From a virus, in IMG/VR virus record IMGVR_UViG_3300006805_000019, positions 1 through 34,739 of that record: DNA of 34,739 bases. The stretch is one strand, 5' to 3'. Of the stretch, positions 2,544 through 34,739 are shown in pieces. The notes below the pieces were generated by a model that ran no database searches, was not told where the DNA came from, and saw only the letters and a program-made list of their open reading frames with translations. How positions within the stretch are numbered: position 1 is the stretch's first letter; every line of letters starts with the position of its first letter. The position numbers and the translations under genes are program-made.

Positions 2544-2992
2544 CAACAAGGTTCCTCGAAACCGACCACGACCGGCGAATGTTGATCCGCTTTCTGGAGG
2601 ACCAGCCTTTGCCGATCACGGTGGCGCTCACCAAGGGCGGCAAGCGTTCGCTTCGGCAGAACAAGCTCCAGCGATTGTGGATCAACGAGATAGCAGAGCA
2701 GCTTGCGGACCAAAGCCCGGAGGAGGTGCGAGGCTACTGCAAGCTGACCATCGGCGTTCCCATCCTGCGGGCTGAAAACGATACCTTCCGCGAGCGGTAC
2801 GATGTTATCGTGCGCCCGCTGCCCTACGAGCAAAAGCTGGCGCTGATGATGGAGCCGCTGGACTTCCCCATTAGCCGCCTGATGACTACGAAGCAGGCTA
2901 CCGCATATCTGGACGGCATACACCGGCATTTCTCGGAGAAGGGGATTGTCCTGACCGATCCGGGCGACCTGATTGCGCGGACTGACGCATGA
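2540..2992 (+). CDS. NinB-like recombination protein
   Basis: A 150-aa protein resembling phage NinB/Orf-type recombination mediators: GKRSLRQNKLQRLWINEIAEQL, a YCKLTIGVPILRAEN segment and a C-terminal LDFPISRLMTTKQATAYLDGIHRHF region. NinB binds single-stranded DNA and helps annealing. The GTG at 2540 is chosen over GTG at 2522 because it overlaps the previous stop as GTGA and has GGAGG at 2527-2531. Placement directly after a Rad52-like gene supports a recombination role. Confidence 0.72.
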   Translation: MTTRFLETDHDRRMLIRFLEDQPLPITVALTKGGKRSLRQNKLQRLWINEIAEQLADQSPEEVRGYCKLTIGVPILRAENDTFRERYDVIVRPLPYEQKLALMMEPLDFPISRLMTTKQATAYLDGIHRHFSEKGIVLTDPGDLIARTDA

Positions 2993-3354
2993 GCCGCGCC
3001 GAGTTCTCCAAGCCCACGAAGCGGGAAGCGTTGCGGCGATCTGCCGGCCAGTGCGAGGCGCGCGGGACCATGTACGGCCTGCCGCTCGCCATGCGCTGCT
3101 TTGCAAATCTGGCTTACGGCGTAGAGTTCGACCACATCATCCTAGACGCCAACTCCAAGGACAATAGCCTGGAGAATTGCGCCGCCGTTTGCGTTAAGTG
3201 CCACAAATACAAGACGGCCAAGCATGACACACCGCTGGCTGCAAAGACTGTGCGCCAACGGGACAAGGCGAACGGCATCAAGAAGCCCTCGCAGTGGCAG
3301 AGCAAGTGGCGCAGGAAAGTAAACGGCAGAACAGTTTTACGGGAGAACACATGA
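2989..3354 (+). CDS. HNH endonuclease
   Basis: A 121-aa protein with the features of compact phage HNH nucleases: CEARG and MRC cysteines (residues 22 and 37), GVEFDH with the first catalytic His (49), Asn at 63 in SLENC, and CVKCH with the last His (72) and two zinc-binding cysteines. The C-terminus is basic. Because it lies in an operon with recombination genes and is coupled to NinB by ATGA, it more likely acts in DNA processing than as a homing element, although both are possible. Confidence 0.82.
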   Translation: MSRAEFSKPTKREALRRSAGQCEARGTMYGLPLAMRCFANLAYGVEFDHIILDANSKDNSLENCAAVCVKCHKYKTAKHDTPLAAKTVRQRDKANGIKKPSQWQSKWRRKVNGRTVLRENT

Positions 3355-11036: not shown

Positions 11037-13072
11037 TTGCGCGGCACCAGCTTGCCGCCCACATAATCGTATTCGGTCACGCCGCCTGGAGCGGCGGCAC
11101 CCGGCATCGTGGCGCGAACGTCCTTGGCTGTGCCTCGTAAATCGGTCATCGGCTGGCCCGCCAACTTCTCGCGCATAGCCAATCGAGTTTGCAGAAGGTC
11201 AATGACCTTGCCCACCGCAGCATCCGCATCGGCCTTTTCAGCCGCAGCACCCCGGAACGTCGAGGGATCGGGCAGCGTGCGGCGAATAATGTCGAGATCG
11301 GGGCCGTTCAAGACGCCAAGATTAAAAAGCTCCTCGCCCTTCGCCAACAGCGCGGCCACGTTGTACGAAGTGTTAAGCGGCGTAGTCGCGCCTGCAATGG
11401 ACTTGACCGAATCCCTCGTCCCGGCCTTCTGAAACTCTTTCTGAAAATCAGCCAAGGCGGACACAATCGTCACCGCTTCCCTGCGGGCCGTGTTCAGCTT
11501 CTCCATTTCCGGGCTGACTTTCGCGGGCATACCCGGAATAGGCGTCGCCACGATGCCACTCGGCGGGGTCTGCGGGGGAGCTCCCTGCGGCGGCTGGGCT
11601 TGCAGCGTCGGGGAACCCACAACGGTATCCGGCGACGGGGCGGGCGGCGCACCCTGCGGGGTGGCTGCGGCCTGTGGCGGGGCGGCCTGCGGGGGCTGTT
11701 GTGGCGCACCCTGCGGAGCGCCTTGCGGCTGGCCCTGGAACCTGTAGGTCGGCGTCGGGAAGGCCGAAAGGTCTTCCGGCGGCATCTGAAAGCCGTTCGC
11801 ATCAAAGCGCGGCTTGTTCAGGTTTCCCCATAGCACCGCATAGTCAACGCTCCCCCTGTACGCGGGATCGTTTGCCGCCCTGATGATCGCGCTCCGGGCT
11901 TGGTTCTCAATACCCTGTCCAGGGATGCCCCCGCCCTCTGCCGGCGGCTTCTTGGCCCCGCCCACAATGCGGTTCACAGGCTGCCCGGTGCGGGGGTTGT
12001 AGAATACGAGGTCGCCCCCTTCTTCTCGCGGGATCAGCGAGACGCCGGCTTCGCTCTTGGCCGCAGCCTCGCGTACCGCCGTCGCCTGCTGGATGTATTT
12101 CAGGGCAATGTCGCCCCGGCCAGCCGCCTGCGCGCGTTGCGCCGCCGCCTCGTATTGCGCGCCAGGATCGGCTCCCTGCCGTTGCGGAGGCAGGGGATTG
12201 CCGCTGCCGTCCGCGCTGCCTTGTGCGAGATTGACGCCGCCTGCGCCGGGGGCGGTGCCGCCTTGGCCTGTTAGAACCGAATGGTAGGCTTGCACCGGGA
12301 GAGCCACGTTCGCGCCCTTCTCTGCACCGTGGACGCCTCTAGCGAACTGCGCCGCAATCTGCGGATTGTTGAGATCAATCGGCTGGTTCGGGTCTAGGCC
12401 GCCGATGCTTGCCACGTTGCGCGCCCATTGGTCTGGGTCGTTGGCGCCGTCACCCTTTGGCGCCCACCGCTGACCAATCTGGGTAAGCGTCATTGGCTGC
12501 CCGTTGTTGAACGCCGCCGGGTATGCGCGAGCGTTATTGACGGTCAGGCGAATGCCGTCCTCAAGCGTGGCGGGCTGCTGAAATCCGGTGTTCTGCCCGG
12601 TCGGGCGCACGTTGCCGATATTGTTTGGATTGACACCACCGCCGGCCTGCTGGGTGGGGTTGCTTCCTGTGCCAAGCAGGAAACCCGCCGTCATAGTGTC
12701 ATCTGCGCGCTGCGTTCTGGTTTTCAATTCGTCGGCAGCCGATTGTGCCGAATACTTGATGCCAATCGACGGGTCTATGGCCGCATAGGCCGCCAGCTTG
12801 GCCGCAGGGTCGGTTAGCTTGCCCGCATCCGCAATCTTGGTGGCAAGGGCTGTCCCCGCCTCCTTCTCGGCGGCGTCCGCAGTGTAATTACCGTATGCCC
12901 CTGCAAGGGCCTGTGCGAGCCTTCCAACACCCTGCCAGGGGGATTGCACCGGGGAGGTGTCCGCACCCTGCTCTGCGAGCTTCTGGGCAAAGGCGCGGCG
13001 GCTGGCGAACGGGTCGCGCTTCCGCCCAGCCATCAAGTAGGCAAGCGAATTGTCTTCGTTGAGGATGGTCAT
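11033..13072 (-). CDS. Large virion protein with a P5-like region, putative ejection/lytic protein
   Basis: A 679-aa protein. After an N-terminal helical part there is a segment at about residues 148-250 (NNIGNVRPTGQNTGFQQPATLEDGI, then YPAAFNNGQPMTLTQIGQRWAPKGDGANDP) that resembles the structural protein P5-type region found in phage virion proteins linked to cell-wall degradation. About residues 447-507 are an extremely Pro/Gln/Ala-rich linker. The helical C-terminal part would pack in the virion. It overlaps the PAPS-reductase-like gene upstream (ATGA). A role in crossing the cell wall during DNA injection is inferred. Confidence 0.75.
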   Translation of the reverse strand: MTILNEDNSLAYLMAGRKRDPFASRRAFAQKLAEQGADTSPVQSPWQGVGRLAQALAGAYGNYTADAAEKEAGTALATKIADAGKLTDPAAKLAAYAAIDPSIGIKYSAQSAADELKTRTQRADDTMTAGFLLGTGSNPTQQAGGGVNPNNIGNVRPTGQNTGFQQPATLEDGIRLTVNNARAYPAAFNNGQPMTLTQIGQRWAPKGDGANDPDQWARNVASIGGLDPNQPIDLNNPQIAAQFARGVHGAEKGANVALPVQAYHSVLTGQGGTAPGAGGVNLAQGSADGSGNPLPPQRQGADPGAQYEAAAQRAQAAGRGDIALKYIQQATAVREAAAKSEAGVSLIPREEGGDLVFYNPRTGQPVNRIVGGAKKPPAEGGGIPGQGIENQARSAIIRAANDPAYRGSVDYAVLWGNLNKPRFDANGFQMPPEDLSAFPTPTYRFQGQPQGAPQGAPQQPPQAAPPQAAATPQGAPPAPSPDTVVGSPTLQAQPPQGAPPQTPPSGIVATPIPGMPAKVSPEMEKLNTARREAVTIVSALADFQKEFQKAGTRDSVKSIAGATTPLNTSYNVAALLAKGEELFNLGVLNGPDLDIIRRTLPDPSTFRGAAAEKADADAAVGKVIDLLQTRLAMREKLAGQPMTDLRGTAKDVRATMPGAAAPGGVTEYDYVGGKLVPRK
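11555..11740. repeat. Low-complexity Pro/Gln/Ala/Gly-coding repeats
   Basis: The bases within the 679-aa virion protein encode imperfect repeats of the type PQGAPQ, PPQAAPPQ and PQGAPP. The DNA is a run of related short units rich in C and G on the minus strand. Such repeats slip during replication, so length variation between relatives is expected. Confidence 0.75.
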
Positions 13073-13791
13073 CGTCCGACCTCCCGCTGGAGGTTTGCCC
13101 AGTGCGGGGCGACTTCAGCCGCCACAAGGGCGAGTTTGATTTGATAGGCCGCGTTCAGGACCGGGTGATGCTTGGCAAGATAGGCAGCGCGGCCCTCGCT
13201 CCACCATGCTGGGCATGTGGCACATTCGGGAGACTGCACGCCGTTCTCGTAGACGCGGCAGATGGGAGCGCCCACCTCGCGGAGATAGGCAAACACCTCG
13301 GCGTCGGACCATTCCAGCAAGGGCAGCCAGAGGTCATAACCAAGGCCAGTTGGGCCGTTCTCATGCGGCAGGCGCTTCATGTCTGCCCGTTTGGTGCCGC
13401 GAATGACAAGAGTGCATCCGTCTCTTACGGCGGCGTCGTGCATCGGCACCATGATATTAAAGGCGCAGCACTCAAAGCGATCCACGATGCGGCGGTCGCT
13501 CATGCCGATTTTCACGCCCAGCGGGGTGCAGGAGCTTGGCACAAGGTCGCTTGGCAGACCAAACTGCTGCTGCCAGTCGGTGGCGCGCGTCTCGATCCGC
13601 ACAAACCTGGGGACAAGCGCCTCGATCTGGTCAACGATTTCCACCACCTCTGGCAGTAAATCGCCGGTATCCACATGATATAGCGTCAGCCGGTCCCAAT
13701 GCGGGCGCAGCAAGTGAACAAGCGCAAGGCTGTCCTTGCCGCCGCTAAACTGAAGGGCCACCTTAGCGTGGTTTGAAAGGGGGTCGGTCAT
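13069..13791 (-). CDS. PAPS reductase-like PP-loop protein
   Basis: A 240-aa protein of the phosphoadenosine-phosphosulfate reductase/PP-loop ATPase group. The signature is FSGGKDSLALVHLL with SGGKDS at residues 16-21, then LYHVDTGDLLPEV, VPSSCTPLGVK, and an IRGTKRADMKR segment, and a C-terminal CATCPAWW. The P-loop keeps the SGG-x-DS form, so nucleotide (ATP-type) chemistry is as likely as true PAPS reduction. Phages carry such genes for sulfur supply or nucleic-acid modification; which one applies here cannot be told. It sits oddly between two virion genes. No Shine-Dalgarno precedes the ATG, which overlaps the start of a divergent lipoprotein gene. Confidence 0.8.
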   Translation of the reverse strand: MTDPLSNHAKVALQFSGGKDSLALVHLLRPHWDRLTLYHVDTGDLLPEVVEIVDQIEALVPRFVRIETRATDWQQQFGLPSDLVPSSCTPLGVKIGMSDRRIVDRFECCAFNIMVPMHDAAVRDGCTLVIRGTKRADMKRLPHENGPTGLGYDLWLPLLEWSDAEVFAYLREVGAPICRVYENGVQSPECATCPAWWSEGRAAYLAKHHPVLNAAYQIKLALVAAEVAPHWANLQREVGR

Positions 13792-14890: not shown

Positions 14891-15383
14891 GTGTCCTGCG
14901 TTCCGGGTGCGGCGTGGCCTTTTTCAAGAAATGCGCCTTGAACGTATTACGGTGAAGACCCAGAACGTGCGCGTGTACACCTTTCGCATAGTAGTGAGCG
15001 ACTGTACCGCGAGACGTGAAGCCGATCCCTTTCACGAACCGGAGCGCCCGGTCATTGATGGAGGGAACGGATAACAGGACTTGTGTTACCTTGAACTGAT
15101 CGAAGGGAATTTTCAATAGGTTAGTAATCGTCCTGCGGGTGGCAAACCGGGGGTTGGCAGCCGCAAAACTCACCTCAATCGTATTGTACCATTCCTGCCC
15201 CTTAATCATCTTGGGCGGGATGTAGTTGTGATAAACGATGGCGGCCAGCACCTTGGCGTCGGGGCCGTCACCATCCGCCAGTCCTACCGCCCTCATTGCT
15301 GGGCTGTAGCTCATCCAGGGGATACGGGAGCAGGTCCACTCGGCAAACTGCTGGTCAAATCCAAAAAGCAACGTATGGGCCAT
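14853..15383 (-). CDS. GNAT-like acetyltransferase in the virion block
   Basis: A 176-aa protein that resembles phage-encoded GNAT-type acetyltransferases: AIVYHNYIPPKMIKGQEWYNTIEVSFAAANP, RRTITNLLKIPFDQ, VLLSVPSINDRALRFVKGIGF, where the last segment matches the C-terminal acetyl-CoA fold region (neighbouring helix and final strands). The start at 15383 overlaps the HNH stop as TAATG with GGAGC eight bases upstream. The target is unknown; such genes often travel with tail genes of podoviruses. The last 38 bases overlap the next gene. Confidence 0.7.
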   Translation of the reverse strand: MAHTLLFGFDQQFAEWTCSRIPWMSYSPAMRAVGLADGDGPDAKVLAAIVYHNYIPPKMIKGQEWYNTIEVSFAAANPRFATRRTITNLLKIPFDQFKVTQVLLSVPSINDRALRFVKGIGFTSRGTVAHYYAKGVHAHVLGLHRNTFKAHFLKKATPHPERRTHGQQERISTISA

Positions 15384-15865
15384 TAGACGTGGCTCCAGCT
15401 TTTTCGCGCGCGTATTTTAGATACCGTGTTCGGGCGAACGCCGTAATCGGCGGCAATCATCCATTGGGGGCGTTCATCGCTCCGAATGGCGCGCACTTGG
15501 TCATTTGTGAGTTTGGCGAGGCCGTGGCTCTCTCCCCGTTCCTGCCGCCCCTTTGACACCTTGTCCGCCATGTTGTCGGCTATTGTTCCTAGGAACAGAT
15601 GAGCCGGATTTACACAGGCAGGTGCGTCGCACGCATGGCAGACGTGGAGATGGGCGGGCGAAGCTCCATAAGCCGCCTCCCACGCCAGCCGGTGCGCTTT
15701 CCGGGGCCGACCCTGCCAGTTTAGCTGACCATATCCGCCGCGATATGTGCCGCCATTCCAGATGCGGCAGCCCGTTTCCGCGTTGGGCGTGCTGTAGTAA
15801 TCCAGCCTCTCCGAAAGCGTGGCCTTGCGCGAAACCTGCGGACGGTCCAATTTTCTCTTAGCCAT
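15383..15865 (-). CDS. HNH homing endonuclease, paralog A
   Basis: A 160-aa protein with the HNH_3-like core: GCRIWNGG, GYGQLNWQGRPRKAHRLAWE, HVCHACDAPACVNPAHLFLGT. It ends in a helix-turn-helix-like segment (LTNDQVRAIRS and IAADYGVRPNTVSKIRARKSW). The first His of the HNH motif lies in VCHAC, and N-P-x-HLF supplies the remainder. Start 15865 is preferred because AGGAG stands nine bases upstream; reading to 15952 covers a leader with a promoter and hairpin. The same family and the same length occur at 16293-16775. It is probably a free-standing homing gene. Confidence 0.85.
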   Translation of the reverse strand: MAKRKLDRPQVSRKATLSERLDYYSTPNAETGCRIWNGGTYRGGYGQLNWQGRPRKAHRLAWEAAYGASPAHLHVCHACDAPACVNPAHLFLGTIADNMADKVSKGRQERGESHGLAKLTNDQVRAIRSDERPQWMIAADYGVRPNTVSKIRARKSWSHV

Positions 15866-15893
15866 TCCAGCACTCCTAATGCTGTTAAGGTCA

Positions 15894-15929
15894 GGGATCG
15901 GCCAAGCATTTCCAGTGCTTGGCGGTCCC
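15894..15929 (-). promoter_or_regulatory. Leader hairpin upstream of HNH paralog A
   Basis: The inner arms GCCAAGCA (15901-15908) and TGCTTGGC (15916-15923) are perfectly complementary around a 7-nt loop. The outer arms GGGATC and GGTCCC extend the stem by six pairs (one wobble) across a single bulged G at 15900. No U-run follows on either strand, so this is not a simple terminator. It lies between the extended -10 promoter and the HNH start. Confidence 0.7.
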
Positions 15930-15931
15930 GA

Positions 15932-15940
15932 ATTATAGCA
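15932..15940 (-). promoter_or_regulatory. Extended -10 promoter for HNH paralog A
   Basis: The minus strand reads TGCTATAAT, a perfect extended -10 element (TGn plus TATAAT). No clear -35 box is present, as is allowed for this class. It would give the HNH gene its own transcription inside the virion block. Confidence 0.6.
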
Positions 15941-15948
15941 CAACTCGC

Positions 15949-16188
15949 TCACGTCGAGGTCACCGTCTGCCAGCCCGCGCCGTTATTGATGCAGAGCTTA
16001 CCAAGGGTCGTATCATACACCAAAAGGCCCGCAGAGTTGGCTAGGGCGTTCTTTTGGGCCGTGGTTATGGGGGAAAGCTGGACCGCCGAAAACACGCCCC
16101 CGGTGCCCATTCCGGCCGATTCAAGATAGGCGCTTAACTGCCGGCGAAACAACTGTTCGTTGCCCTCGTAGATCGGGATAACGGGCAT
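15949..16188 (-). CDS. Small virion-region protein
   Basis: A 79-aa protein starting MPVIPIYEGNEQLFRRQLSAYLES and ending with a beta-strand pattern LLVYDTTLGKLCINNGAGWQTVTS, typical of small phage structural or fibre-head proteins with a repeated surface fold. It lies between the tail protein at 16772 and the GNAT gene and is flanked by two paralogous HNH genes, one on each strand. Function unknown. Confidence 0.7.
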   Translation of the reverse strand: MPVIPIYEGNEQLFRRQLSAYLESAGMGTGGVFSAVQLSPITTAQKNALANSAGLLVYDTTLGKLCINNGAGWQTVTST

Positions 16189-16190
16189 GT

Positions 16191-16219
16191 TTGATGCTAC
16201 CCGAAAGACAAGGCATAAT
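16191..16219 (+). promoter_or_regulatory. Candidate promoter for HNH paralog B
   Basis: TTGATG (16191-16196), a 17-bp spacer and CATAAT (16214-16219) form a sigma-70-like promoter on the plus strand, with four and five of six consensus matches. The expected start is near 16226, leaving a GC-rich leader of about 67 nt before the HNH start. Confidence 0.5.
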
Positions 16220-16292
16220 GCGCGGGCCGCGCGGCGCTACCAACGCCGTCACGGCCCTGACCGACAACCCTTTGTGTAGAAAGATTGCGGCT

Positions 16293-16775
16293 ATGACCAC
16301 GTATCGCGGAATTAATGTTCGGCGCAACATGCCACTGGGGGAACGCTTGGCTTTCCGCTCCCTCCGCGCTGAAAATGGATGCTTGCTCTGGACCGGCTCT
16401 CTTTCCAACGGCTATGGGAGCATGAGATGGGATGGGCGTCCGCAGCTTACGCATCGGTTGGCCTGGATTAACGCCAGCGGCCCTATTCCGCAAGGCTTGT
16501 ACGTTTGTCACAAGTGCGACGTTCCGGCGTGCATTGAACCTAGCCATCTCTTTCTTGGCACACACCAAGACAACATTAACGACATGGTGGCTAAAGGGCG
16601 CCGCACATCTCTGCGCGGCGAATGCCACGGAAAGTCCAAACTCACCACTTCCGCTATCCTGAGCATCCGCGCCGACGCAAGGTTTTTGCGCGTGATCGCA
16701 GCCGACTACGGCGTCAGTCAATCGCTTATTCACGCCATCCGCAAAGGTAAGGTTTGGCGCCATCTTCTTCCCTAA
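16293..16775 (+). CDS. HNH homing endonuclease, paralog B
   Basis: A 160-aa protein of the same family and length as paralog A: GCLLWTGS, GYGSMRWDGRPQLTHRLAW, YVCHKCDVPACIEPSHLFLGTHQDN, and a similar C-terminal DNA-binding segment (IAADYGVSQSLIHAIRKGKVW). The start at 16293 is chosen because the family begins at about this point and the upstream frame to 16191 overlaps the promoter; the ribosome site is weak. The stop overlaps the end of the convergent tail gene by four bases. It is probably a free-standing homing gene. Confidence 0.85.
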   Translation: MTTYRGINVRRNMPLGERLAFRSLRAENGCLLWTGSLSNGYGSMRWDGRPQLTHRLAWINASGPIPQGLYVCHKCDVPACIEPSHLFLGTHQDNINDMVAKGRRTSLRGECHGKSKLTTSAILSIRADARFLRVIAADYGVSQSLIHAIRKGKVWRHLLP

Positions 16776-26923: not shown

Positions 26924-28278
26924 GCTTCCGCATCCTTCCGGCGCTTGGTCTGTCGCTCAACCATCTCCTTTATGGAGAGGTTGCTGGAGATTGTACCATC
27001 TCCGGTGCCAATGTAGAAATCGACCGGGCTTTTGGGCGCCGGCTCGGTCGCGCGCAGTTCCCGCCAGCCGATCGACAGGTATCTCCAGGCGTCCGCCGCG
27101 TGGCTCGACCAATCGTGCAGCGGCGTGGGTTTCAGCACCTTCCGCTCCTCGTCGTATTCGGCCCTGTATTGCTTCAACGCCTCGATGCCTTCAGCGCATT
27201 TGGTGCGGTCAAAGCGGGCCAATGGGATCGTTGTGCGCCCCGCCTGGATGCCGTCCATTAGCCTGTGATCCGGCACCACCCAAGGCTGGAGGTTGAGGTT
27301 TTGCATGATCTCGATGCGCGTGCGGCCCGATCCCCATTCCTTGACCTTCGCGTCATGCGGAACAAGGCAATAGCCCAGCTTGTAGCCCTTGCCGTGAAGC
27401 ACCTCGGCATAGTGATCGACGCCAACGCCGGAGGCTTCGTAGTAGTCCACCACGTTTACGCCGCCCATCAAGGGCTGAAAAAACCAGATGGCGGTGCTGT
27501 CCCGGACGCCCAAGTCCCATGCGGTGTAGACGGGGCTTTCCGGGTCTACAGGCACGTTTGCAATGCGCCCTGCCGTGTCGGCCTGCCCCATCTCGCGGCC
27601 CCAGTAGGCCCCTGTAATGGCCGCCTCAAACGAGCATTCAAATTCCTGCTCGTATTGCTCCGGGGACATGAGCTTGCGGGCGCTGTCCAGTTCGTCTTGT
27701 GCCACAAGGCCCGTCTCGCTGGCCTTCAGCATCACGCCGTACCATTCGTCGTCGTTCTGTGACGCCTGCCACGCCTTGTAGAAATCGTTGTGGCCGCGCG
27801 GCGTGCCGATCAGCGTCAGCGAGCCTCTTCGGTCTGACAGAGCGGGCCGGATGATTTCAGGGAGCATTCGTGGACGCATGTCAGCAAATTCATCGAGTAC
27901 GCAGTCATCCAGGTATATCCCCCGCATTCCATCGGGATTATCAGCGCCATAAAGTCGAACCCGTCCGCCGTTTGGGAGGTCGATCCTGAGTTCGGATTCG
28001 TTGGCCACAGTCCCCGGAATGACTGCACTGAAGCGTTTGAGATAGGTCCATGCAACATCTTTGGATTGTTTGAAAAGAGGCGCGACATATGCGGTGCGGG
28101 GTTCTGGGTGCTGGCATGTGAGTGCAGAGCGGATCAAGTGATTGATGCAAGCCACAGTCTTACCCGCCCGCCTGTGTGCCACAATTACCCGCCACCGATG
28201 CGGGGTGTTGTGGAACGCCATAAAGTGCAGCCTCGGACTGTAAGGAATAATTACGCGTTTTTGGCCTAAGACCGGCAT
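26920..28278 (-). CDS. Terminase large subunit
   Basis: A 452-aa packaging motor ATPase and nuclease. Walker A is AHRRAGKTV (residues 34-42), Walker B with catalytic Asp-Glu lies in IYLDDCVLDEF (129-130). The C-terminal nuclease carries AWDLGVRDSTAIWFF, VPHDAKVKEWGSGRTRIE and HDWSSHAADAWRYL, as in headful or cohesive-type terminases of podoviruses. The ATG at 28278 is preferred because the family begins close to PVLGQKRVIIPYSPR; the frame to 28413 is mainly endonuclease-coding sequence. The terminase subunits are split by a LAGLIDADG gene. Confidence 0.92.
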   Translation of the reverse strand: MPVLGQKRVIIPYSPRLHFMAFHNTPHRWRVIVAHRRAGKTVACINHLIRSALTCQHPEPRTAYVAPLFKQSKDVAWTYLKRFSAVIPGTVANESELRIDLPNGGRVRLYGADNPDGMRGIYLDDCVLDEFADMRPRMLPEIIRPALSDRRGSLTLIGTPRGHNDFYKAWQASQNDDEWYGVMLKASETGLVAQDELDSARKLMSPEQYEQEFECSFEAAITGAYWGREMGQADTAGRIANVPVDPESPVYTAWDLGVRDSTAIWFFQPLMGGVNVVDYYEASGVGVDHYAEVLHGKGYKLGYCLVPHDAKVKEWGSGRTRIEIMQNLNLQPWVVPDHRLMDGIQAGRTTIPLARFDRTKCAEGIEALKQYRAEYDEERKVLKPTPLHDWSSHAADAWRYLSIGWRELRATEPAPKSPVDFYIGTGDGTISSNLSIKEMVERQTKRRKDAEA

Positions 28279-28669
28279 GATCGCGGATGCCCCTGATTTC
28301 GTTAAGAAGCGCGAGGCGCGCATTGATCGCGGCCTGCCCAGAGCGGATGCCCGGTCTACCCGGCGGTAGGTCAGCGAAGCGAAGCGCGACCTCAACCTGA
28401 TCTGCTTTCGCAATCAAATGCGGCTGTATCTCTCGGAGAAAGGCCGCCGCTATGCGGGAGCAAGCGACCCACGCAGAGCAGGATATGGTTTTTGAGTGCT
28501 GAACGCTGCCGCCAAAGCGGGCCTTGATAAGCTCAAGGGGCATCGTATCCCGTTGAACAATTTGGCACCTCAACTCAAACAGCATGTAACGGCCAGCATG
28601 AGTGCGAAGTAAGCGGATATCAACAGTGCCTTCGCCGTCGAAGAAACCGGCGGTCCAGGCGGGGGTCAC
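28160..28669 (-). CDS. LAGLIDADG homing endonuclease
   Basis: A 169-aa protein with one LAGLIDADG motif: AWTAGFFDGEGTVDIR at residues 4-19. It continues with CQIVQRDTMPLELIKARFGGSV, typical of the fold. One motif per chain means a homodimer. The GTG at 28669 overlaps the small-terminase stop as GTGA. Its last 119 bases overlap the start of the large terminase in another frame, so the C-terminal part (after about residue 130) has been taken from the terminase 5' end. No intron or intein is visible; it is a free-standing gene inserted between the two subunits. Confidence 0.85.
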   Translation of the reverse strand: MTPAWTAGFFDGEGTVDIRLLRTHAGRYMLFELRCQIVQRDTMPLELIKARFGGSVQHSKTISCSAWVACSRIAAAFLREIQPHLIAKADQVEVALRFADLPPGRPGIRSGQAAINARLALLNEIRGIRDHAGLRPKTRNYSLQSEAALYGVPQHPASVAGNCGTQAGG

Positions 28670-28932
28670 TGCGGCGGGAGCCACGATATCGCCAATGCAA
28701 TCGGGCCGCCGTCGTTACCCGTTACGGCTTGGGGAACCTTGCCGTCTAGGCGGTCGCCAAATTCGCGGGCAGCCGCTACATCGCCATTTGCTGCGGCGTT
28801 TACCAGCGCACGCGCGGCCATCTCCAGCTTCTTTGGACCCTTGCGACCCTCGGCAAAGTCGAGCGCGGCTTTTCGTAACGCATTAGCCCAAATGCGGTCT
28901 GTCTTTGCGCCTTTTGGTCTACCAGCTGGCAT
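28666..28932 (-). CDS. Terminase small subunit-like protein
   Basis: An 88-aa protein: MAPAG-type opening MPAGRPKGAKTDRIWANALRKAALDFAEG, a helical middle KLEMAARALVNAAANGDVAAAREFGDRLDGKVPQ and a short tail. The GRPKGAKTDR start and the DRLDGKVPQ phrase are common in small phage DNA-binding terminase partners. It lies upstream of the large subunit, separated by the homing gene. No strong Shine-Dalgarno precedes ATG 28932. Confidence 0.75.
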   Translation of the reverse strand: MPAGRPKGAKTDRIWANALRKAALDFAEGRKGPKKLEMAARALVNAAANGDVAAAREFGDRLDGKVPQAVTGNDGGPIALAISWLPPQ

Positions 28933-30036: not shown

Positions 30037-31638
30037 CTAAGTCGTAATCGTGTAGCGCGTCGTTTCTTCGTTCCAAATGCCTGTGATTTCACCGGGCCTG
30101 CCGATGGCGTTGTGGTAGCGCGATTTTACCACCCGAATTGCCGTGTCTTTGCTGGTCGCCATGTCCTCGCGGTGGATCACAATCCCCACGTCTGCCTTGT
30201 TCGACCAATGCGCCGAATCGCTAATATCGTACAGGCCGGGAAAGGGGTACTTGCCGTCCTTGCCGCGCTGCATCTTGGCCGGATGCGCCACCACGATAAG
30301 GTGGATTTGATACTTCTTGGCAAGCTTACGGAATTGACGGATCGCGAACCCGACGTATTCCGTAAGGCTCATATCCGGCGGCCGGGAATGGTCCATTTCA
30401 TTCCAAGGATCAATCACCACAATACTGGCGTCGTAGCGGATGATCGAGGCGGCGGCGCGTTCTAGCACCCACTCTAGCGAAACGTCGTCATCCTCGGCGG
30501 GGACGATAAAAGCAAAATGCCGATCAATCCAGCCATCGGCCTTCGCCAATTCCTCGGCCTGCATCGTCTTTTCCAGTTTGCCCGAATAGAACGACCGAAG
30601 CGCCCTGCGGTGGTCTACCTGTGGGTTTTGTTCAAAGCTGGCAAATACCGTGTTCCACTTGTGCGTCTGTGCCATCCGGCAGCAGACTTCGTTGACGAAG
30701 CTGGATTTGCCATGCCCCGGCAAGCCGGTCACGACGCAGAAGTCACCCCGCCGCATCCGGTAATGCTCCCACAGGCTCACAATACCAATGTCCAGGGCGG
30801 GCGGGGGCGTCATAGGGGGCAGTTCTGAAAGCCGGTACACTCCGTCCACCCGGCACCATTGAGCGCGCCTGATGGTTTCCTGAACACCCTTTGGTCCGTA
30901 CAGTTTCAATGCATCGTTTAGGTCTTTGCATTCCTTTGGATACTTGACCCACTTGCAACGATGCCGCCCCAGCCTTAGGGACAGGTCATGCAAAAGATTG
31001 GCGCCAGGGCCGTCGCCATCCACGGCTAGAATGATTTCGCGCACGTCCCGCAGCAGAGTCTCGGCTTCCTCAAGAAAAGCGTATTTCTTGCCGCCGCCGT
31101 CCTCGGATCGCTCGCTGGGAGCGCCGCCGGGAACACTGACCGTCCGTGGATATCCGCACTGGATCGCCGAAAAGGCGTCCATTTCGCCCTCTGTTATAAT
31201 CAGAGGCTCTGTCGCCAGCGTCTCATCCCGAAGGCAATCCAAGTTCCACAGGATTTGCCTGCCGCCCGCGTCCTGAGTAAATCGCTTTTCACCGGCAATC
31301 GTTCGATATTTAGTCGCAACGCGCACCCCGTTGTCGAAATACGGAATACCTATGCAGTCACCAGCTAGCCGACTTGACGCGCCGACGCCAAGATTCGCCA
31401 ATAGCTCGGGATCGAGCGCCCGCGCTTCTATGGCCGCCGTATGGCTTGACTGGAAGGGACGCAGGATCGCGGATGCCCCCTTTCCATCCGCAATGGTGAC
31501 AGAGCCATGTGGCTCCATCTCGGGAAAGGCTGACGGATAGGCATCGGTCGTTTCGCGCTTTGCGGTCATGGCTGCACTGGGGGCAAGTTGTTCTCTGGGT
31601 GCCGGTATTGGCGTGGCGAAGTTGGATGCCTTGGGCAT
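30037..31638 (-). CDS. Replicative DNA helicase with TOPRIM domain (C-terminal part of a split primase-helicase)
   Basis: The frame codes a primase TOPRIM region with LIITEGEMDAFSA (Glu150, Asp154 in this frame) and AVDGDGPGAN (207-214), then a RecA-like DnaB/Twinkle helicase: Walker A TGLPGHGKSSF (304-314), Walker B IVVIDPWNEM, VAHPAKMQ. The usual zinc-finger domain is missing and is found in an overlapping frame upstream (31358-31654). The nominal ATG at 31638 and the later ATGs 31569 and 31518 have no Shine-Dalgarno, and the first 50 residues look like a frame shadow of the zinc finger. Deleting one G from the G5 run at 31476-31480 would fuse both into a 538-aa protein. Confidence 0.85.
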   Translation of the reverse strand: MPKASNFATPIPAPREQLAPSAAMTAKRETTDAYPSAFPEMEPHGSVTIADGKGASAILRPFQSSHTAAIEARALDPELLANLGVGASSRLAGDCIGIPYFDNGVRVATKYRTIAGEKRFTQDAGGRQILWNLDCLRDETLATEPLIITEGEMDAFSAIQCGYPRTVSVPGGAPSERSEDGGGKKYAFLEEAETLLRDVREIILAVDGDGPGANLLHDLSLRLGRHRCKWVKYPKECKDLNDALKLYGPKGVQETIRRAQWCRVDGVYRLSELPPMTPPPALDIGIVSLWEHYRMRRGDFCVVTGLPGHGKSSFVNEVCCRMAQTHKWNTVFASFEQNPQVDHRRALRSFYSGKLEKTMQAEELAKADGWIDRHFAFIVPAEDDDVSLEWVLERAAASIIRYDASIVVIDPWNEMDHSRPPDMSLTEYVGFAIRQFRKLAKKYQIHLIVVAHPAKMQRGKDGKYPFPGLYDISDSAHWSNKADVGIVIHREDMATSKDTAIRVVKSRYHNAIGRPGEITGIWNEETTRYTITT

Positions 31639-31654
31639 GAAGGGCGGATAGCAT
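31358..31654 (-). CDS. Primase zinc-finger domain (N-terminal part of a split primase-helicase)
   Basis: A 98-aa frame beginning MLSALHAQGIQL with a CHC2-like zinc finger: CPQC (Cys24, Cys27) and CHHC (Cys52, Cys55), with SRDGATWLCHHCGWKGG between and after. This normally starts phage TOPRIM primase-helicases. After the finger the frame becomes Arg/Ser-rich and ends, while the TOPRIM domain continues in the +1 frame. The ATG at 31654 overlaps the previous stop (TGATG) and has AGGGG eight bases upstream. Either a frameshift, a slippage-controlled gene, or a sequence error. Confidence 0.8.
   Translation of the reverse strand: MLSALHAQGIQLRHANTGTQRTTCPQCSHDRKARNDRCLSVSLSRDGATWLCHHCGWKGGIRDPASLPVKPYGGHRSAGARSRAIGESWRRRVKSASW
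31476..31483 (-). other. Frame-switch site (AAAGGGGG on the minus strand)
   Basis: In the zinc-finger frame the codons are TGG AAA GGG GGC; in the helicase frame they are GGA AAG GGG GCA. Moving +1 on this run keeps GGG paired with GGG in the P site, so slippage is chemically easy. All coding evidence changes frame at this point. Confidence 0.6.
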
Positions 31655-32283
31655 CAGTTCCACCCCTGCGGCTTGTCTGGCGGTTTCAGAGCCTTGGTCA
31701 TCCAGGCAACGGCGTCAATCGGCCCCTCGCGCTGGGCGCGCCCCAATGCTGATATCAGCGCCTCATCACCCGATTGCTGTCGCCACTTGCCGAGTAGGGC
31801 GCGGCAGGCAGCGTCGGGCTTCCCAGTAGATTGAGCCAGCCACCTCAGACCGACGCCGAAAACGACAGCGGTGATATCCTCCGTTTTTGACGGCGAATGC
31901 CCGTTAGCTTTAGCTAACGGAATATCTGTATCTGTATCTGTCTCTGAGGGCGCTACTGTAACGTTACGATGCCGTTCCCTGTAGCGTTTCACTCTCTCAT
32001 TTGAAACGTCACTCTTGTATTGACGGCTGTTCCAATTGTGCGGAGTGACGCCGTTATCGTCGCGGTCAAGAAGGCCGCCAGAAACTAGCGCGTCCAATAG
32101 CTTAGTCGTCTCCGCATCTGATTTACGCAGAGCGAATGCAATGTCCTTGTGGGGTGGCAGCCTGCCGTCGTGGCGCTTCGCTAGGCATAGGAGGTTGATC
32201 CATCCCTTAAACGTCTCGCCGGTCAGCCGCTGGACCTTCGGATCGTCTAAGGCGCTCTCGTAAAAGCGGAACCACTGGCTCAT
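31654..32283 (-). CDS. Replication-initiation / replisome-organiser-like protein
   Basis: A 209-aa protein resembling phage replication organisers with an N-terminal winged helix: SQWFRFYESALDDPKVQRLTGETFKGWINLLCLAKRHDGRLP, then HKDIAFALRKSDAETTKLLDALVSGGLLDRDDNGVTPHNWNSRQYKSDVSNERVKRYRERH. The C-terminal half (about 130-209) is helical (LRWLAQSTGKPDAACRALLGKW). It sits directly before the primase-helicase and may help load the helicase. The ATG at 32283 overlaps the previous TGA (TGATG) and has GGGGG upstream. Confidence 0.78.
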   Translation of the reverse strand: MSQWFRFYESALDDPKVQRLTGETFKGWINLLCLAKRHDGRLPPHKDIAFALRKSDAETTKLLDALVSGGLLDRDDNGVTPHNWNSRQYKSDVSNERVKRYRERHRNVTVAPSETDTDTDIPLAKANGHSPSKTEDITAVVFGVGLRWLAQSTGKPDAACRALLGKWRQQSGDEALISALGRAQREGPIDAVAWMTKALKPPDKPQGWN

Positions 32284-32450
32284 CACTCCCCCCTCAGGCC
32301 GTATTCGGCTATCAAGTCCTCGGCGTCTCTAGTCGAAATCAGGCCAGACAAGGCAGCGTCAACGATCACGGCTTTGAGTGTCGATTTAGGCAAACGGATA
32401 CGCCGCCGCCTTTCAGGGCGTGGTGTGGGCGGGGGATTATCGAAGGGCAT
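32283..32450 (-). CDS. Small basic protein, first gene after the RNA element
   Basis: A 55-aa protein: MPFDNPPPTPRPERRRRIRLPKST, strongly basic and Pro-rich, then a short helix VIVDAALSGLISTRDAEDLI. GAGGA is six bases before the ATG and is part of a 10-base stretch perfectly complementary to an upstream loop (32494-32503). The stop overlaps the organiser start. No family recognised; translational gate for the replication genes is inferred from the RNA element. Confidence 0.7.
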   Translation of the reverse strand: MPFDNPPPTPRPERRRRIRLPKSTLKAVIVDAALSGLISTRDAEDLIAEYGLRGE

Positions 32451-33496: not shown

Positions 33497-33690
33497 GTCT
33501 CCCTCCGTCCCGGCTTGTGAAATACCAGCGTGCTGCCGGTTTCCCTCAACTCGCACGCTAGGGCGGCAAATCTGCCCGGCAGAAGCCGTCCGTCGTTTTC
33601 CTGCACCAGCACCCTCCCCATAGGCAGGGCGCACACTACGGCCACGCTCTGCCATTCCTGGCGGGGGTTGGCTCGCCACAGAGTGGTCAT
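33493..33690 (-). CDS. Small hypothetical protein
   Basis: A 65-aa protein, MTTLWRANPRQEWQSVAVVCALP then a strand/turn part VLVQENDGRLLPGRF. Coupled by ATGA overlaps to both neighbours. No family recognised. Confidence 0.66.
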   Translation of the reverse strand: MTTLWRANPRQEWQSVAVVCALPMGRVLVQENDGRLLPGRFAALACELRETGSTLVFHKPGRRET

Positions 33691-34322
33691 GCCAGCAACT
33701 CCTTCGCCCGGTCGTACCAGCCGCGATGCGTGGCGCTTTCCTCGATGCGGGTAAGGGTTTCGCTCTCGCCGTGTCGAACTGTAGTATGGTCCCTATTGCC
33801 GAATAGGAAACCGACCTTTGGCTGTGACAAGTCCGGGCGGTATTCCCGGCACAACAGCATGGCAAGATGGCGAGGATGGGCGAACCGTTGCTCCCGCGAG
33901 GCCCCGCACATTTGCGCGACCGTGATGCCGGTCACGGCGGCGACGGCGGCCATGATGTCGCCAACGCGGACCCGGCCCGCCATCGGAGTGACCCGCTCCG
34001 CAACAGCGAGCGCGTGCTTGCCGGCGTCGGTCTTCCAATAGTCGTTGAATTTGCTTTCAGGGCAAGAAGCGCGACCGGGAGCGGGCTGCGGCTCTACGGG
34101 GCGAGCGACCGGCGCGGGCTTGGGGGCCGGTTCGGGCTGGGCGATGCGCTCGAAAGAACGCTCGCCGGTCGCACAGTTGACCGTGATATGCGTCTCTTTG
34201 GCGTTGAGGAAAACCGGGCGCCGCCCCATAATCTTGCGCTCCAACTGCGGATGCCGAGTGGCGTAGAGGGCCGCTCGCAGGCGCGCTTTCGTTACGATCC
34301 CAAACTCGTCTGTTGGTTGCAT
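33687..34322 (-). CDS. DnaA domain IV-like DNA-binding protein
   Basis: A 211-aa protein. The C-terminal part (about 122-190) matches DnaA domain IV: VAAVTGITVAQMCGASREQRFAHPRHLAMLLCREY, then VGFLFGNRDHTTVRHG (the signature GNRDHTTVRHG at 175-185, used by DnaA to contact its box). The AAA+ part of DnaA is absent. The N-terminal 60 residues are helix-rich and a Pro/Ala linker joins the two. The ATG at 34322 has AGGA seven bases upstream; an in-frame ATG at 34454, overlapping the methyltransferase stop, is a possible longer start. It likely recognises origin or regulatory DnaA-like boxes. Confidence 0.85.
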   Translation of the reverse strand: MQPTDEFGIVTKARLRAALYATRHPQLERKIMGRRPVFLNAKETHITVNCATGERSFERIAQPEPAPKPAPVARPVEPQPAPGRASCPESKFNDYWKTDAGKHALAVAERVTPMAGRVRVGDIMAAVAAVTGITVAQMCGASREQRFAHPRHLAMLLCREYRPDLSQPKVGFLFGNRDHTTVRHGESETLTRIEESATHRGWYDRAKELLA

Positions 34323-34347
34323 GGCGTTTCCTTCTTTGTGAACGGGT

Positions 34348-34385
34348 GGCGCTACCATCACCAGGGGAGGACAGATGGTAGCGCC
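34348..34385 (-). promoter_or_regulatory. Perfect 12-bp hairpin upstream of the DnaA-like gene
   Basis: The arms GGCGCTACCATC and GATGGTAGCGCC are exact inverted complements around a 14-nt loop (TGTCCTCCCCTGGT on the minus strand). It lies between the methyltransferase stop and the ATG at 34322, so on the transcript it is a strong leader stem. No U-run follows. Function as an attenuator, a DNA operator or an RNA control element is open. Confidence 0.7.
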
Positions 34386-34450
34386 CTGCCAGCGCGTGGG
34401 GCGCGGCAGATCGGGGGCGTAAACGCTCGACCCGATTTGGTGGGTGAAAT

Positions 34451-34739
34451 TCATACGCTGCCGCCCCACTGGCTCGCCATAGCATCGGCAATGCCTTGGA
34501 ATGTGCGGCTGCGGTTCTTCCATCGGTCAGGGCCGGGCGCCATCCGGTGAACCCGCGCCTCGCGGCCCTCGACAATGTTCGTGGGGGTGAGCGGTTGCAG
34601 GTTCTTTAGCCACAGACAGGTGCGCTTCGTCTCGCCGTGGCCAAATTGCCAAGGCTGCACCGATTGCGCGGGTGGCTGGTAATTCGCGATCAACGCCTTG
34701 GCGTGCTTGTGCATGACCGGGTTTTCAATTGCGATCCGC
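34451..34739 (-). CDS. DNA cytosine methyltransferase-like protein (C-terminal part, continues at window start)
   Basis: This is the C-terminal part of the gene that begins at 437 on the other side of the circular junction. The frame is continuous: joined, the gene is 603 nt, 200 codons plus stop. Visible family features are the QPWQFGHGETKRTCLW segment, typical of this compact methyltransferase-like family, and a C-terminus ending TFQGIADAMASQWG. An internal ATG in this part is only an apparent start created by the cut. The gene is followed by a 128-nt leader holding a 12-bp hairpin and then by the DnaA-like gene. Confidence 0.85.
   Translation of the reverse strand, partial: RIAIENPVMHKHAKALIANYQPPAQSVQPWQFGHGETKRTCLWLKNLQPLTPTNIVEGREARVHRMAPGPDRWKNRSRTFQGIADAMASQWGGSV
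34617..34739. repeat. Direct terminal repeat, right copy
   Basis: This is the exact copy of bases 1-123. Removing one copy gives a unique genome length of 34,616 bp and joins the two halves of the methyltransferase gene in frame. Confidence 0.97.

Follow-up and report, generated by a model that had tools for sequence, protein, structure and literature searches.

An apparently conserved split of a T7 gp4-like primase-helicase into overlapping zinc-finger and TOPRIM-helicase genes

The locus and its two reading frames

The window, i.e. the complete stretch of 34,739 nucleotides that was analysed, is the whole of the virus record IMGVR_UViG_3300006805_000019. Because it carries a 123-bp exact terminal direct repeat (1-123 and 34617-34739), the contig is probably a complete genome. 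On its minus strand a gene for a replication-initiation-like protein is followed by a gene for a small zinc-finger (ZF) protein and, in another frame, by a gene for a TOPRIM-DnaB helicase (Table 1).

Table 1. Genes and candidate signals at the primase-helicase locus of the window
Feature	Positions	Strand	Remarks
Upstream gene, replication-initiation/DnaD-like protein	31654..32286	minus	TGATG join to the ZF gene
Primase zinc-binding protein (ZF) gene	31358..31654	minus	98 aa; CPQC...CHHC zinc ribbon; family members match PHROG DNA primases
Helicase-frame ATG inside the ZF gene	31567..31569	minus	CSH-D codons CAT GAC; in nine loci, eight of them the window and close relatives
AAAGGGGG, K-G-G codons of ZF	31476..31483	minus	where relatives have the helicase Shine-Dalgarno; slip site proposed in the preliminary description
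AUC, near-cognate start candidate	31465..31467	minus	8 nt past the G run; AUU in L161, L083 and L298
CUG, near-cognate start candidate	31462..31464	minus	aligns with the ATG of relatives (LRPL versus MGGL)
TOPRIM-DnaB helicase gene, minimal conserved coding part	30037..31464	minus	from the CUG codon aligned with the relatives' ATG (candidate start); Pfam Toprim and DnaB_C
Minimum dual-coding overlap of both genes	31358..31464	minus	about 107 nt; 212 nt with a helicase start at 31569

The ZF open reading frame extends from 31663 to 31358, and its likely ATG at 31654 is set by the TGATG stop-start junction with the upstream gene. The tail of the protein is basic, ending in ...SWRRRVKSASW. In the structure model the first 60 residues or so are confident and a helix at the end (84-96) is of low confidence; the fold matches are weak, with the T4 primosome chains 8dvf_H and 8gao_G among them. 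When 42 ZF members of the family were compared with profiles of DNA primases, 11 matched phrog_47 (best 2.7e-08), five phrog_239 and five phrog_2304; Pfam Zn_ribbon_DnaG was matched by one of the 42, and the window's own ZF, searched alone, matched none of these four. By its sequence the protein is recognizable as a CPxC...CxxC zinc ribbon homologous to primase zinc-binding domains (ZBDs) of the DnaG type.

The helicase frame, which is +1 relative to the ZF frame, is open from 31638 down to its stop at 30037. Its profile match covers residues 91-538 of T7 gp4 and extends also to Twinkle, and its structure model has a pLDDT of 90.5, a confident fold. As in T7 gp4, a TOPRIM domain and a DnaB-like RecA helicase domain are found in one polypeptide; a ZBD covalently in frame with TOPRIM, which characterizes the 63-kDa form, is not present in the window, where the ZF lies in another frame.

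The preliminary description of this DNA, which had placed the primase zinc finger and the TOPRIM-helicase in different, overlapping frames joined at AAAGGGGG, was confirmed with respect to both open reading frames and to the position of this element, and it is arithmetically true that removal of one G yields a single open reading frame of 538 aa. Its statement that the helicase ATGs lack a ribosome site also holds: for those at 31638, 31569 and 31518 the anti-Shine-Dalgarno duplex energies are all 0.0. Runs of five G or five C occur 54 times in the window, the GC content of which is 61%, so that such a run is unremarkable by itself.

The layout among relatives and selection on both frames

Relatives were taken from viral contigs and from contigs of bacterial genomes and were reduced to 162 distinct loci including the window. 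The ZF is accompanied by a helicase in +1 in 130 of them, a recurrence of the frame relation that is far beyond chance; in 20 the two are fused in frame, in one the helicase is in +2, and 11 are without ZF by the pattern used. By eye, three of the pattern-negative loci (L177, L179 and L308) have a ZF in +1 and two (L205 and L214) look fused. In the tree the split layout forms one clade (SH-aLRT 98) with 124 rows (119 split, four without ZF and one in +2). Fused homologues, which the preliminary description had suggested looking for, lie outside the split clade.

The +1 relation is common to L161 (87% identical to the window), L082-L084 (76%), L298 (73%), L162, L163, L164, L193 and L233, most of which do not have the G5 run. 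An uninterrupted gene in close relatives and a conserved G run in the split gene, both envisaged in the preliminary description, are therefore the opposite of what was seen. The split layout is present also in genomes of cultured bacteria and in the cultured Bradyrhizobium phage BDU-MI-1 (L323, KY940711.1), whose GenBank record has no CDS annotated for the ZF, an example of how gene callers can miss this open reading frame. Two lineages have gene pairs that do not overlap, L004 (+2 frame, TAATG junction) and L047 (same frame, a stop in between), and in both the ZF end is aromatic. Reyranella and similar bacteria (L169, L170, L172 and L173) have a TOPRIM-helicase with no adjacent ZF seen in any frame, which counts against a ZF partner of the helicase throughout the family.

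No near-identical contig spanning the junction came up in a search by exact pattern; L054 matches helicase residues 353-459 with 100% identity but does not reach the junction. L003 (the same as L088/L258) was used with caution because it has internal indels and Ns. At L047:3001- the TOPRIM part (query residues 1-241) is found inside a 1165-aa open frame that runs into non-DnaB-like sequence.

Selection was estimated against a null model in which the helicase was recoded synonymously with each gene's own codon usage. With related sequences counted as independent, the margins being wide, the first ZF-frame stop was found at helicase anchor +53 to +62 in 88 of 130 loci versus 7.3 ± 2.5 expected, an interval that was picked after the mode had been seen, with an excess that is nonetheless over tenfold; earlier ZF-frame stops were seen 14 times versus 64.7 expected (130 loci), and an aromatic residue was among the last two ZF residues in 96 of 118 cases versus 26.9 ± 4.0. 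Because the stop has a conserved place and the aromatic end is in excess over the recoding, the ZF product is selected to its own end. In the window, L161, L083 and L298 divergence is highest at the third codon position of the ZF up to about +42 and at that of the helicase beyond it, a pattern that fits a helicase start or a frame shift thereabouts. Both frames of the overlap are under selection, and the overlap is dual coding.

Initiation of the helicase

In 99 loci the helicase has its own ATG after the ZF, usually +31, +34 or +37 relative to the second CxxC, and the Shine-Dalgarno of these ATGs exceeds what the ZF codons predict (−7.15 versus −6.14 kcal, z −5.3). In most relatives the codons that surround the "G-run" form this Shine-Dalgarno. 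In other lineages the ATG is situated near −8 or −50 and often has a strong Shine-Dalgarno. Between the ZF and the downstream ATG the helicase frame contains a stop, at +22 to +34, in about a dozen loci. In most members the helicase appears, from these signals, to be independently initiated with its own start codon and Shine-Dalgarno just past the ZF; the start patterns of the family and the non-overlapping pairs are explicable without any frameshifting.

The downstream ATG is missing from the window's clade, L162 excepted. An ATG at the CSH[DEV] codons is found in nine loci (the window, L161, L083, L298, L162, L163, L164, L258 and L168), and these include six of the 10 loci without another scored start versus three of the 120 others; only in L258 does this ATG have more than a weak Shine-Dalgarno, if any. 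The window's anti-Shine-Dalgarno energy at AAAGGGGG is −10.7 kcal/mol for starts at +34/+37. In the close relatives the Shine-Dalgarno before AUC/AUU-CUG is no stronger than ZF-codon recoding predicts. Neither candidate start is convincing, because the ATG at 31569 is without a Shine-Dalgarno and that of AUC/CUG is not above expectation. The helicase of the window most likely starts at the conserved ATG at 31569, or else at the near-cognate AUC or CUG (31467/31464) behind AAAGGGGG. A near-cognate AUU/CUG start as a rule for the whole clade was considered and rejected, since its Shine-Dalgarno is not above expectation and L163 and L164 have no well placed codon.

It is conceivable, if rather doubtful, that helicase synthesis in the window's clade depends on +1 frameshifting or on initiation at a non-AUG codon, in which case one mRNA would give the zinc-binding subunit together with a helicase that is either fused or ZBD-less. 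If this were true, reading by frameshift or from a non-AUG codon would be a different route to the long and short pair of T7.

Programmed +1 frameshifting, for example by slippage on GGG_G in AAAGGGGG as proposed in the preliminary description, would yield a ZF-TOPRIM-helicase fusion beside a ZF-only product. It would agree with the finding that the +1 relation is kept nearly without exception across linkers of 40-130 nt, with the lack in the window's clade of an ATG, GTG or TTG bearing a good Shine-Dalgarno after the ZF, with L163 and L164, which are without even a well placed near-cognate codon, and with the presence of GGG_G also in L083 and L233. Yet GGG_G is absent from most of the relatives of 65-87% identity that share the frame relation, and even the window's clade has no common slip codon (L161 has GGG_C, and L003, L162, L163, L164 and L193 are without GGG at the site). 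A conserved slip codon with a stimulatory element of the prfB kind was common neither to the family nor to the clade; the Shine-Dalgarno plus CUU/UGA arrangement of prfB was considered, and none was seen. Against frameshifting are also the helicase's own Shine-Dalgarno and ATG in most of the family, the helicase-frame stops ahead of that ATG, the two lineages with non-overlapping genes and the selection of the ZF tail and stop as a separate product. Frameshifting is thus an unlikely explanation, and the data do not support slippage at the G5 run as a conserved or general mechanism.

That this phage carries a real inactivating frameshift, as the preliminary description also considered, is very improbable: the window has no convincing helicase start, but the downstream helicase is an intact protein with a confident fold, and many relatives of the same split layout conserve it. 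That the true gene is fused and the G5 run at the apparent junction reflects a homopolymer error of sequencing or assembly is hardly credible, as independent assemblies at 65-87% identity (L161, L082-L084, L298, L162, L164 and L193), most of them without G5, as well as genomes of cultured bacteria have the same +1 relation. With this relation shared by the relatives and the cultured BDU-MI-1, sequencing error and private mutation can in practice be ruled out.

A proposed primase with a separate zinc-binding protein

We consider it probable that a T7 gp4-like primase-helicase has been split into overlapping genes for a ZF protein and, in +1, a TOPRIM-DnaB helicase, both under selection, with the helicase initiated on its own in most members and the ZBD supplied in trans. 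The split layout itself is real and conserved, a known enzyme in an unusual gene arrangement. The split apparently took place once, in the ancestor from which a large group of phages and prophages, most of them alphaproteobacterial, descends. It would have produced a primase zinc-binding protein of small size and a TOPRIM-DnaB helicase similar to the 56-kDa T7 gp4, which has no ZBD. Acting in trans, the zinc-binding protein would presumably serve the TOPRIM domain in the helicase ring; its basic C-terminal tail, with an aromatic end, may be what docks it there.

T7 gene 4 is the closest parallel, with a ZBD, a TOPRIM primase core and a DnaB-like helicase, and with a helicase made without the ZBD. 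Its two forms, 63-kDa gp4A and 56-kDa gp4B, arise by alternative initiation at codon 64 (PMC9198812), and the preliminary description's reference to long and short T7 forms is in this respect relevant. The 56-kDa form without ZBD retains helicase activity and does not synthesize primers (PMC9198812), and it is because of this property that we suggest a ZBD in trans. T7, however, has its ZBD in frame and makes a fused 63-kDa form; in the window a separate protein, read in another frame, provides the ZBD, and there is no fused open reading frame.

The fused TOPRIM primase-helicases of phrog_239 (for example L184, L185, L187, L188, L196 and L199) have a zinc ribbon and a helicase of the same kind and in the same order. 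Unlike the window they have a single open reading frame and a longer distance between ZF and TOPRIM, and they are outside the split clade.

In DnaG primases, too, a ZBD cooperates with the RNA polymerase domain; in DnaG the ZBD is covalently kept and the helicase is a separate protein. Crosstalk in trans between primase subunits has been reported (Corn 2005, as listed in PMC6163395).

Translationally coupled gene pairs with short overlaps (PMC10666635) are similarly unidirectional and likely encode subunits of one complex, but they overlap by 1 or 4 nt. In the present case the two genes share about 100-210 nt in +1, too long a stretch for coupling to be expected at the ZF stop codon. In the open-access literature we found no description of a separate primase ZBD gene or of a primase-helicase frameshift.

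If the ZBD acts in trans, these phages would have a natural separable primase, in which the ZBD could be probed by adding or omitting one small protein; its roles in template recognition and primer hand-off would thereby become open to study. The locus would also be a case in which a gene for fused domains has become a long-lasting dual-coding overlap.

Elsewhere in the genome, the protein of 278 aa encoded at 33687-34523 (minus) has the C-terminal DNA-binding domain of DnaA (Bac_DnaA_C, 9e-19), and 13069-13791 (minus) encodes a protein of the PAPS-reductase family. Likely free-standing homing endonucleases are found at 15383-15952 (minus), 16191-16775 (plus), 2989-3354 (plus) and 28160-28684 (minus); two of them, close together on opposite strands, are of the HNH_3 type, one is HNH and one a LAGLIDADG match that falls slightly short of its Pfam cut-off.
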